Origin: Planctomycetia bacterium | GTDB taxonomy: Bacteria; Planctomycetota; Planctomycetia; Gemmatales; HRBIN36 | Length of the DNA: 64,000 bases | Assembly: GCA_016795155.1 (NCBI GenBank) | Contig: JAEUIE010000044.1 | Location: 62,001 to 126,000, forward strand | Direction of reading: 5' to 3' | Shown here: positions 15,530 to 20,180 of the stretch, piece by piece | How positions within the stretch are numbered: position 1 is the stretch's first letter | How the letters are laid out: each line of letters begins with the position of its first letter | Translations under genes and position numbers: made by a program | The notes under the pieces: model-generated | Database searches by the model: none | The model's input: the letters and a program-made list of their open reading frames with translations, nothing else | Told to the model about the DNA's origin: nothing

Positions 15530-17527
15530 ATGACTCATCGACTGAATTCACTTTCCCTCAGAATCGTTGCACTGGTTACCATAACTGTTTTGGTCATCAC
15601 CAGTCTGGCAGGCAACGTTTCGATAACACAAGCAGCATCGCCAGAACCACAAGATAAGGCTGTCCGAAAAGCACCCGAACTGGAGGGTGGCACTGCCTGG
15701 CTGAACACTGCCGGACCACTCAAGTTGGCTGACCTGCGTGGCAAAGTCGTACTGCTCGATTTCTGGACTTATTGCTGCATCAACTGCATTCACATCCTGC
15801 CCGACCTCGAAAGGCTCGAAAAAAAATATCCCAATGAGCTTGTGGTCATTGGTGTGCATTCAGCCAAGTTCAACACTGAGAAAGATACCAATAACATCCG
15901 CGAAGCAATCCTGCGGTATCACATCGAACACCCCGTGGTCAATGATGCCAACCACAAAATCTGGAATGCCTATGGAGTGAATTCCTGGCCCACGTTCTGG
16001 CTGATTGATCCCGAAGGCAACGCAGTTGGCTGGGTAGCTGGCGAAGGTAACCTGGAGAAACTCGATTCAGTTATTGCCAAGCAGATTGACAAACACAAAC
16101 AAAAGAAAACGCTGAACACCAAACCGATTCGCATCGCGCTGGAAAAAGACAAGGAACTAGCCAAGTCACCTGTTTCACCTTTACTCTATCCTGGAAAAAT
16201 CCATGCCGACGTGGCTGGCAAACGCCTCTTCATCGCTGACAGTTCCAATCATCGCATTGTCATCACTGATCTCGAGGGAGCGAAACTCGACATCGCCGGC
16301 ACGGGTGTCAGTGGCAATAAGGAAGGTTCTTTCGACCAGGCTCAGTTCAATGATCCGCAAGGCATGGCACTGCAAGGCGAAATTCTTTATGTTGCTGATC
16401 GCAAGAACCATCAGATCAAAGCACTTGATTTGAAACAACGAATCGTTCGCAATGTTGCAGGCGTGGGTATACAGGGCAGAAGCATGGGCGGGCCTGGGAA
16501 AACCACTCCCATGAACAGCCCATGGGACTTGTTGCTCATACGCAATCAACTGTTCATTGCCATGGCCGGGCATCATCAAATCTGGAAGCTGGAAGTCTCT
16601 TCCAATCAATTAACGCCCTATGCCGGCAATGGCCGTGAAGACATTATTGATGGCAGTCTGTCTCAAAGTTCCTTTGCTCAGCCCAGCGGACTGGCGAGCG
16701 ATGGCAACTGGCTTTTCGTGGCTGATTCTGAAGTAAGTGCCATCCGTGCCGTGCCCCTGCTCACCGGTAACGAAGTGAAAAGCCTGGTAGGCAGCGGTTT
16801 GTTCAATTTTGGTGATAAGGATGGCGCTGGTGCGAGTGCCCTGTTACAGCATTGCCTGGGTGTTTCCATGTGGAACAGCAATGTGGTGATTGCAGATACC
16901 TACAATAACAAATTAAAGGTACTGGAACCCAAAAACAGACAGGTCATGACGCTCGTTGGCGATGGCAAGCCGGGCAATACCGACAGCCCGCCCCGTTTCA
17001 ATGAACCAGCCGGACTGCATGTGGTGGGTGATACCGCCTATGTTGCAGACACCAACAATCACCTCATTCGCGTGGTTGATCTGAAGAAGCGTTCGGTCAA
17101 AACGCTCAAACTTACTGGATTGAACAGCCCAAGTACCTCTATGGCTAGCAAGCCTGCACTCCGCAATGTGGTCAATGTAGCATTGGACAACGTAGCATTA
17201 CCTGTTAACGGCAACATCGATTTTGAATTCAAAATCAAGCTGACTAAAGGTATGAAGATCGAGCCAACTTCACCCATCGTCTATGTGGTGGAAGGTTACG
17301 ATGGCGGCAAACAGCGAGTATTTGACCAGTTTGGCGAAGTGTTCATTACGAAAATCAGCGTACCTGCGCAGAAACTGCGAAACGTTAAGAAGCTCAAGGT
17401 AGGCATTGAGTATTATCCCTGCACCGAAGGCCAGGGTATCTGCCAGGTGAAAAGCCAGGTCTGGGAAATACCGGTTACGTTTACGGCACAGGGCAAGTCA
17501 CCAGTGACATTGGAAACGCGTGAATAA
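15530..17527 (+). CDS. Thioredoxin-like domain plus NHL-repeat propeller (NHLRC2-like)
   Basis: 665 residues. A signal peptide (about 11-36) precedes a thioredoxin-fold domain (about 48-185) with active site W79-T-Y-C-C-I-N-C86, so the redox CxxC is C83/C86, and with a cis-Pro loop NSWPTFWLID. An NHL-repeat beta-propeller (about 200-540; repeated VADxxNHxI segments such as FIADSSNHRIVI and YVADTNNHLIRV) and a C-terminal beta-domain with a Cys pair (YYPCTEGQGICQ) follow. This is the architecture of NHLRC2-like proteins. It should sit in the periplasm as a thiol oxidoreductase or its regulator. It lies 70 bp upstream of the DsbD-like selenoprotein candidate on the same strand, which suggests electron flow from the DsbD-like protein to this one. 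Confidence 0.92.
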   Translation: MTHRLNSLSLRIVALVTITVLVITSLAGNVSITQAASPEPQDKAVRKAPELEGGTAWLNTAGPLKLADLRGKVVLLDFWTYCCINCIHILPDLERLEKKYPNELVVIGVHSAKFNTEKDTNNIREAILRYHIEHPVVNDANHKIWNAYGVNSWPTFWLIDPEGNAVGWVAGEGNLEKLDSVIAKQIDKHKQKKTLNTKPIRIALEKDKELAKSPVSPLLYPGKIHADVAGKRLFIADSSNHRIVITDLEGAKLDIAGTGVSGNKEGSFDQAQFNDPQGMALQGEILYVADRKNHQIKALDLKQRIVRNVAGVGIQGRSMGGPGKTTPMNSPWDLLLIRNQLFIAMAGHHQIWKLEVSSNQLTPYAGNGREDIIDGSLSQSSFAQPSGLASDGNWLFVADSEVSAIRAVPLLTGNEVKSLVGSGLFNFGDKDGAGASALLQHCLGVSMWNSNVVIADTYNNKLKVLEPKNRQVMTLVGDGKPGNTDSPPRFNEPAGLHVVGDTAYVADTNNHLIRVVDLKKRSVKTLKLTGLNSPSTSMASKPALRNVVNVALDNVALPVNGNIDFEFKIKLTKGMKIEPTSPIVYVVEGYDGGKQRVFDQFGEVFITKISVPAQKLRNVKKLKVGIEYYPCTEGQGICQVKSQVWEIPVTFTAQGKSPVTLETRE

Positions 17528-17597: not shown

Positions 17598-20180
17598 ATG
17601 GCACATCTCTTTCAGCAGGGATGGTTAGTTTGCCTGCTGCTGCTGAGCCTGGTTTCTCAGGCTCGCGCTCAAGAAGAACGGATGGAAGCTGATGCCAGCC
17701 TGTCTGTCAAGGAAAGCAAGCCAGGCGAGACCATCACACTCAAAGTAGATTTGAATGTTAAGCCTGGATTTCACACCTACCCATCTGTTCAAAAAGACAG
17801 CAATGCATCTGCCTTTGTTACCTCGATTCGCGTTAAAAATGAAAAGGATGCACCGGTTGAGCGGACCGGCAAAATCAAGGAACCTGAACCGAAGGACAAA
17901 CTGGAAGCAGCCCTTAATGCCACTGTCAGTTACTTTGATGAACCTGTGACGCTGGAAGTACCGCTCAAAATCAAAGCCAATGCAACAGGCAAAACCAAGT
18001 TCAGCATCTCTCTGGTTACCCAGGTCTGCGACGACATGGGCTGTGTACCATTTACCAAAACCTTCGATTTTGAGCTTTCGATCAAAACAGCTGAATCAAC
18101 TCCACCTGCCAAGAAAGTATCTGCTGAATCAGACGATGAAACTGCTGGCTCAAAAGATCGCATGGAAACCAGTGCCAGCCTGAGCGCCCTGGAAGGCAAG
18201 CCTGGTGACACCATCACTCTGAAGCTGAACCTGGATGTAAAACCCGGCTTTCATACCTATCCTTCCGTGCAGAAAGACAGCAACGCTGCCAGCTTTGTTA
18301 CTTCCGTTCGAGTCAAGAACGAACAAGAAGCATCTGTCGAACGTTCAGGCAATATCAAGGAACCGGAACCCAAGGACAAGCTGGAAGCAGCACTAGGTGC
18401 TACAGTCAGTTATTTTGACAGCCCGGTGACACTGGAAGTTCCTCTCAAGATCAAGTCGAATGCATCGGCGGGCAAAGCAAAATTCACCATCTCGCTAGTA
18501 ACTCAGGTCTGCGACAAGATGGGTTGCGTTCCTTATTCCAAGCCGTTCGATTTTGAAATCATTATCAACCCAGCAGTGCAGAACACTGCACCTTCCAAGA
18601 AACCAAGTCAGCCACCTGAAGACCCCGATACGATTGACCCCAATGCGAAATTGAAAATCGCCGACCCTGCCGGTATTCGTTCAAAAAAAACAGACACCGT
18701 GGAGCGTCCGCAGAAAGCAGTTGAAACCAAGACTGCTACGGCAGACAAATCGGAAGAAACGCTCTGGTCCTTCACGTTAAAAGGCGTCATTTTCGGTTTC
18801 ATTACGCTGCTGACACCCTGCGTCTTCCCGATGATTCCCATCACAGTCAGCTTCTTTCTTAAACAAAACAAAACTGGTCAAGAAGCGATCATCAATGCCG
18901 CGGTTTACACTTTGAGCATCATCATCTCGATGTCGTTTATTGCCTACTTCTTTATCCAAACCTTCCAGGAACTCGCACAACTCGGCTCCACCAATCTGGT
19001 GATAGGTGCCTTGTTTATTTATTTCGCACTCAGTTTGTTCGGAGCGTATGAAATCACTTTGCCCAGCTTCCTGACTCGCTGGACTTCAGCAGGCGAATCG
19101 AAAGGTGGTTACATCGGTACCATCTTCATGGCCATGACCTTCACCATTATCAGCTTCTCCTGCGTGGCTCCATTCCTGGGTGGTTTTGCTGGTGCCACTG
19201 CAGCTGAACGACCGGTACTCTGGAATATTGCCGGTGCCTTGGGTTTTGCTGTGGCTTTTGCTTCACCCTTCTTCTTGCTTGCCCTGTTCCCCTCCTGTCT
19301 CAAAGCGTTGCCAAAGAGTGGTGGCTGGCTTAACACCATGAAAGTTGTCATGGGTTTCCTGGAAGTAGCAGCAGCCATCAAGTTCTTCCGTTCCGCAGAA
19401 ATGCGCTGGAAAGCTGGTTTGCCCGAGTTTCTGACTTTCGATGTCTGTATCAGCCTTTACATCGCCATATGTTTCCTGTGTGGCATCTATCTACTTGGCA
19501 CTTACAAACTTCCTCACGATGATCATGGCGATGAGAAGAAAACGATTGGTGTCGGCAGGTTGATCTGGAGTATTGTTTTCATTTCATTGGGCATCTATCT
19601 GTTCCCTGCCATGTTCCGCAGCCCCGATGGTGAAAAGCTCAGACCCGCAGGCGTCATCTACAGTTGGATTGAATCATTCCTCTTGCCCGGTGGCGATACG
19701 AAACCTATCAAGCTCGCCTTCGCCAGTGAAAAAGGCGCTGCCGCTCCTGCCCACAAATGGTTTGGCTTTCTACCTGAAGCGATGGTCGATGCCAAGACAC
19801 GCAAGCAACGTATTTTCATCGATTTCACAGGTGTTACCTGAACCAACTGCGCTTTGAACGAGAAGAGTTTCTTCTCATTGCCTGAAATCAAGACCGAGTT
19901 CGCCAAGTATACGCTTTTGAAGCAGTACACGGACACGGTACCGCTTGAGTATTACCCTGTTGAGAAATTGCAGGCTACAACGATTGATGTCCAGGAGGCG
20001 GATGCTGAAAAGATCAAGAAATTCCAGAAAGAACGATTCAAAGACATCCAGTTGCCTCTGTATGTGATCATTGAACCAGATGGTGATGATTTCAGGGAGG
20101 TGGCCCGATATCCTCTGTCAGTCATTCGCGATGCCAGTGACTTTGCGAATTTCCTGCGAAAGAACGCAACAAATCAATAA
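17598..20180 (+). CDS. dsbD: DsbD-like thiol:disulfide reductase, candidate selenoprotein (in-frame TGA at 19839-19841)
   Basis: 860 residues if the TGA is read as selenocysteine. Order: a signal peptide (1-24); two tandem copies of the periplasmic DsbD-alpha domain starting at residues 28 and 188, each with a Cys pair (QVCDDMGC and QVCDKMGC); a Pro/Lys linker; a membrane domain with eight or so helices and the DsbD redox cysteines C408 (LLTPCVFPMIP) and C522 (SFSCVAPFLGG); and a C-terminal thioredoxin domain. In that last domain the family motif FTGVT-C-TNC reads FTGVT-TGA-TNC751, so residue 748 is encoded by TGA. The frame stays open to 20180 with sensible sequence, including a cis-Pro loop QLPLYVI. 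A SECIS-like hairpin follows the TGA. The alternative is a recent nonsense mutation leaving a 747-residue truncated protein. The start at 17598 has GGAG 8 nt upstream. Confidence 0.85.
17679..18560 (+). repeat. Tandem duplication of the DsbD-alpha domain
   Basis: Two copies of about 400 bp with a 480-bp period, beginning at 17679 and 18159. The encoded domains share long identical blocks (VKPGFHTYPSVQKDSNA, KEPEPKDKLEAAL, ATVSYFD, VTLEVPLKIK, SLVTQVCD), while the linker between them differs. Both copies keep the Cys pair. Codons differ at many third positions, so the duplication is not brand new, but it is much younger than the family. Confidence 0.9.
19857..19879 (+). promoter_or_regulatory. 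Candidate bacterial SECIS hairpin
   Basis: A perfect 7-bp stem GAGAAGA (19860-19866) / TCTTCTC (19870-19876) encloses the loop GTT (19867-19869). The stem extends past one C-A mismatch by two A-T pairs. The loop G lies 25 nt after the last base of the TGA. Published bacterial SECIS rules ask for a hairpin inside the coding region with the apical loop roughly 16-37 nt after the TGA and a G among the first loop bases; this hairpin satisfies them. SelB binding is inferred. Confidence 0.7.

Follow-up and report, generated by a model that had tools for sequence, protein, structure and literature searches.

DsbD is the central supplier of reducing power to the periplasm, and in the Escherichia coli protein the residue that attacks the following disulfide of the chain is Cys461. 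UxxC thioredoxins and the DsbA/DsbG-like selenoproteins, in which selenocysteine (Sec, U) stands in the active-site pair, are not known to take part in a transmembrane electron relay. The domain cd02953 is the gamma domain of DsbD. A study of the GOS metagenomes reported 22 sequences with UxxC under the name “Trx-like 2 (Thiol disulfide interchange protein)”, cd02953 (PMC2398784), and the family name occurs elsewhere too (PMC1794560, PMC9312934, PMC13188914). An inventory from 2026 of 119 prokaryotic selenoprotein families lists a “Thiol:disulfide interchange protein” (PF13098, UxxC) as well as TsoB, a rhodanese/DsbD fusion-like selenoprotein (NF045694) (PMC13188914).

We describe here a planctomycete gene that almost certainly encodes, as far as sequence can tell, a DsbD-type transmembrane thiol reductase with Sec as its nucleophile, the UGA being decoded by the genome's own machinery under a SECIS hairpin. 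It resembles the cysteine-type DsbD of E. coli (2FWE, 1UC7, 1VRS) in its domain order (DsbD_N, DsbD_TM, thioredoxin domain), in its membrane cysteines and in the place of its active-site pair. In contrast, Sec replaces the first cysteine, within FTGxx-U-xNC where E. coli has ADWCVAC, and the protein carries two DsbD_N copies and scores below the cut-off of the NCBIfam DsbD subfamily NF001419 (91.6 bits against 330); it is a DsbD-type protein outside that curated subfamily. With the GOS “Trx-like 2” group it shares Sec in the UxxC of a DsbD-gamma-type domain, but that group consists of metagenome sequences and its representative is filed under PF13098. In the accessible literature that group is neither given a full-length DsbD architecture nor compared for SECIS elements, and it is not linked to Planctomycetota. 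TsoB likewise pairs a DsbD-like membrane domain with Sec, but has UxxxxU and a rhodanese domain where the present protein has UxxC and, by Pfam, no rhodanese domain; its model matches over the membrane domain only (127.9 bits, far below the cut-off of 805), and we reject membership of that family. The UxxC thioredoxins and DsbA/DsbG-like selenoproteins have the UxxC chemistry in a thioredoxin fold in common with it (Table 1, PMC13188914).

Results

A DsbD-type gene interrupted by a single UGA

The window, by which we mean the whole stretch of 64,000 nucleotides analysed, holds the following features, all on the forward strand.

15530..17527, forward strand: gene for a thioredoxin-NHL protein with a CCINC motif, adjoining dsbD (homology to SOQ1/NHLRC2, conserved gene order)
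17598..20180, forward strand: Sec-DsbD gene, with a signal-peptide-like start, two DsbD_N-type domains, DsbD_TM, a C-terminal thioredoxin domain with UxxC, and a TAA stop
18774..19385, forward strand: DsbD_TM membrane domain with two invariant cysteines (TPCVFP, SFSCVAP)
19839..19841, forward strand: UGA predicted to be read as Sec, where CxxC has its first Cys (codon reads in relatives, profile alignment)
19848..19850, forward strand: codon of the second, resolving Cys of UxxC (U-T-N-C)
19860..19876, forward strand: SECIS-like hairpin, with a 7-bp stem GAGAAGA/TCTTCTC and a loop GTT starting with G, 18 nt after the UGA

The original prediction had seen one in-frame TGA splitting an otherwise continuous frame from 17598 to 20180, and the reading frame confirms it: the TGA at 19839-19841, within FIDFTGVT-*-TNCALNEKSF, is the sole interruption. 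An alternative start lies at ATG 17550, 763 codons ahead of the TGA; judged by eye, the start at 17598 gives the better signal-peptide-like N-terminus. Pfam PF11412, PF02683 and PF13899 all score above their cut-offs, in the order DsbD_N, DsbD_TM, thioredoxin-like, and no other gene in the 5.28-Mb genome matches DsbD. The window contains no second TGA flanked by a long open frame in a CxxC-like setting. We also note that the DsbD_N domain occurs twice in tandem at 17670-18560 (VCDDMGC, VCDKMGC); the copies are very similar and look like a recent internal duplication.

Beyond the TGA lie 112 sense codons and then TAA, and these complete the thioredoxin-like domain. They are conserved protein sequence, as expected of a gene that is not decaying, and the cis-Pro loop said to follow the TGA is there, the proline of QLPLY (P120 of A2) being the same in every sequence of the thioredoxin-domain alignment. 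This conservation also bears on the rival reading that survives best, in which the UGA is mainly a conditional stop: at low selenium the main product would be a shorter DsbD lacking the thioredoxin domain, with the behaviour of a CcdA-type reductase joined to DsbD_N domains, and the codon would serve as a selenium switch. Termination at UGA does compete with Sec insertion in bacteria, the truncated product would retain both membrane cysteines, and one genome (G073) carries Sec and Cys paralogues. Such a switch is, however, compatible with Sec insertion, and the domain past the UGA is conserved as protein; we consider it improbable as the main role of the codon, and retain the reading of a full-length protein with Sec.

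The UGA codon across the Planctomycetota

The TGA occupies the first Cys position of the active site in the C-terminal thioredoxin domain, and related genomes, which have TGA or a Cys codon there, bear this out. Among 61 relatives, six genomes including that of the window have TGA in DsbD, always at the same codon, where TGC or TGT stands in the others that could be read. Scanning 84,980 species genomes for the motif gave ten loci, every one from the Planctomycetota and each with 96-114 sense codons beyond the TGA, and the relatives of two of these contained many more Sec forms. We then surveyed 394 Planctomycetota genomes with a profile and fetched 100 regions. The active-site codon could be read in 217 Planctomycetota loci (116 TGA, 70 TGC, 31 TGT; 98 Sec and 94 Cys sequences once copies were removed), and the survey part alone gave at least 77 Sec loci in at least 76 of the 394 genomes, one genome (G183) having two; since Sec forms were the source of the survey profile, the Sec share in these counts should not be taken as an unbiased frequency.

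When the membrane and thioredoxin domains of the 217 loci are aligned by HMM (438 positions), 116 of 117 in-frame TGAs coincide with the active-site codon, which goes beyond chance; the remaining one lies near the C-terminus of a Cys form. Counts of two TGAs at some loci had raised the idea of two Sec residues, which we reject, as no Sec form has a second TGA within its aligned domains. Several Sec-DsbDs (L078, L081, L084, L087, L106 and L225) have the more usual motif DFTADWUxxC (in L084, DFTAPSUMTC), and exchange between Sec and Cys is therefore not confined to the FTGxxU subgroup.

That the TGA is a sequencing error or a private nonsense mutation, absent from the living genome or marking a decaying gene, might be entertained on the grounds that the window's genome is known from a single assembly and its protein sits on a fairly long branch; against this, independent assemblies from dozens of genera have TGA at this same codon and nowhere else, and the 112 codons past it are conserved as protein sequence. 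The presence of TGA in independent genomes refutes error and decay, to which we give practically no credence, and removes the worry over a private mutation.

Machinery for decoding UGA as Sec

A search of the genome for selA, selB, selC (tRNA-Sec) and selD found all four. A tRNA-Sec with anticodon TCA lies at C5:90415-90508 (70.7 bits), selB at C59:93113-94993 (402 bits) is followed directly by selA at C59:95183-96541 (564 bits), and selD is on C12 (365 bits; L069, G000:C12:77743-78672). The selD frame has a TGA of its own at the usual Sec site (SCAGUAGK), and one selenoprotein at least, of a familiar kind, is therefore encoded in this genome.

With the window's genome counted in, selB is present in each of the six genomes with Sec-DsbD in the set of 61 relatives, an association that is statistically weak because 53 of the 61 carry selB. 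Four of five further Sec-DsbD genomes also have it, and of ten Sec-DsbD genomes scanned for tRNA-Sec, nine have one that scores above the cut-off. The genome without a selB match, G061 (L059), has Sec-DsbD and tRNA-Sec, which points to a gap in a draft genome or to a divergent factor; its missing selB and the missing tRNA-Sec of the other exception, G038, are most simply draft-genome gaps.

The machinery also speaks against a genome-wide reassignment of TGA to an ordinary amino acid (Trp, Cys or Gly), a reading with next to no chance of being right which would account for the frame staying open through the TGA, but which is ruled out by that full Sec machinery and by the ordinary genes of the window that also end at TGA, and which sits ill with the confinement of TGA to a single codon of the aligned DsbD domains.

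A hairpin downstream of the UGA

The hairpin at 19860-19876 has its stem arms at 19860-19866 and 19870-19876, and agrees with the bacterial SECIS model in its spacing after the UGA and in the G that opens the loop. Taken alone it is not stronger than dinucleotide shuffles of itself (z -0.29), and the evidence for it therefore comes from setting Sec forms against Cys forms and from synonymous redraws. In the window's order, Sec forms have a SECIS-like hairpin after the UGA and Cys forms do not. In a first set, all 11 Sec forms were at or below -6.1 kcal/mol and all 31 Cys forms at or above -5.8; redrawing synonymous codons with the protein kept made the hairpin weaker in Sec forms (mean z -2.3) but not in Cys forms (+0.2). 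Across the 98 Sec and 94 Cys distinct sequences the mean z was -1.16 versus -0.21 (p ~7e-10, kinship not corrected for). The order-level alignment shows compensatory changes, two of the seven stem pairs changing on both sides, the window itself having gone from C-G to G-C.

The residue after the VF/FF motif is Ser in the Sec forms of the order and mostly Pro or Thr in Cys forms, as if the RNA shaped the protein. We also note a Cys-form DsbD (L019, genome G023) with the strongest hairpin of the first Cys set, -5.8, in a genome that lacks selB and, scanned as a contrast to the Sec-DsbD genomes, has no tRNA-Sec above the cut-off; as a weak hint, this could be a former Sec gene.

Exchange of Sec and Cys

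A FastTree phylogeny of 191 sequences was built with the active-site codon masked, and changes of state were counted without direction. This tree requires 20 changes between Sec and Cys, 15 of them forced by well-supported branches, versus 64 changes for shuffled labels. Four genera have both Sec and Cys DsbD, and within the window's own order the best tree requires six changes, of which at least three are forced. The window's DsbD is on a fairly long branch, and its own place in the tree is unsure for that reason. As an observation in its own right, the Sec and Cys paralogues of G073 (L087, L082) have a nearly equal motif, DFTADW-U/C-LTCKSNE, and form a natural matched pair.

Discussion

We suggest that the conserved UGA, the decoding genes and the hairpin comparison together mark a genuine selenoprotein, a DsbD with UxxC. 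This was the reading of the original prediction, and the sel genes, the tRNA-Sec and the finding of TGA or Cys at the exact codon in relatives support it. Sec would be put in at the UGA by the genome's SelA, SelB, SelD and tRNA-Sec, guided by the hairpin downstream, and would take the place of the nucleophilic Cys of the C-terminal thioredoxin domain to give UxxC.

The membrane cysteines and the U/C pair are invariant in the Sec-form alignment A1 (C41, C155, U/C381-C384), a profile alignment matches U to the first Cys of ADWCVAC in the C-domain of E. coli DsbD, and an AlphaFold model of the thioredoxin domain (pLDDT 81) matches DsbD C-domain structures. The UGA-encoded residue is thus the equivalent of E. 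coli Cys461. From the cysteines, the alignment and the model we infer a DsbD-type relay with a selenol nucleophile, whose architecture suggests transfer from thioredoxin to the periplasm. By analogy with E. coli DsbD, electrons of cytosolic thioredoxin would pass to the two cysteines of the membrane domain and on to the UxxC pair, and from there to the N-terminal domains and to periplasmic partners.

These partners probably include the SOQ1/NHLRC2-like thioredoxin encoded just upstream. The protein joins a thioredoxin domain with CCINC to an NHL propeller, is near plant SOQ1 (E 5e-133) and human NHLRC2, and its gene adjoins dsbD in about 30 loci fetched from the order, copies included, among Sec and Cys forms alike. 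This conserved adjacency makes it a good candidate, and the likely electron acceptor of DsbD; gene order is the one line of support for the partnership as it had been proposed.

The claim that the architecture was undescribed stands for the full-length protein and falls for the domain. Sec is already known in the DsbD-gamma domain type, cd02953 with UxxC being present in GOS. What appears to be new is the full-length transmembrane UxxC form, how common it is in one phylum and how often it has been exchanged with Cys: no published list that we read contains a full-length UxxC DsbD, we found no account of its abundance in Planctomycetota, the 119 families of the 2026 inventory have no entry for it (PMC13188914), and the main text of the red-alga Planctomycetes selenoprotein study does not mention Dsb proteins (PMC4807772).

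Going by these sequences, then, the Sec form appears to be a widespread alternative to the Cys form in the Planctomycetota, exchanged with it many times. We think it likely that the phylum has a major, so far unlisted selenoprotein family in the full-length DsbD whose nucleophile is Sec, with at least 15-20 switches between the Cys and the Sec state. It is in any case much more widespread than originally suggested, extending across a phylum, and is no quirk of one genome. Standard gene calling ends at UGA, and a working DsbD is therefore likely annotated as truncated in many genomes. Roughly one in five of the sampled Planctomycetota genomes, or more, is predicted to have Sec as the DsbD nucleophile, and close relatives with Cys are many. 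Selenium would then head a redox pathway outside the cytoplasm, and the redox balance of the cell envelope would depend on the supply of selenium. Where one genus or genome has both Sec and Cys forms, these offer matched pairs for testing what Sec adds and any advantage it may bring, and if the family is as we propose, planctomycete DsbD would be a natural system in which to test why bacteria choose selenium in an electron relay.
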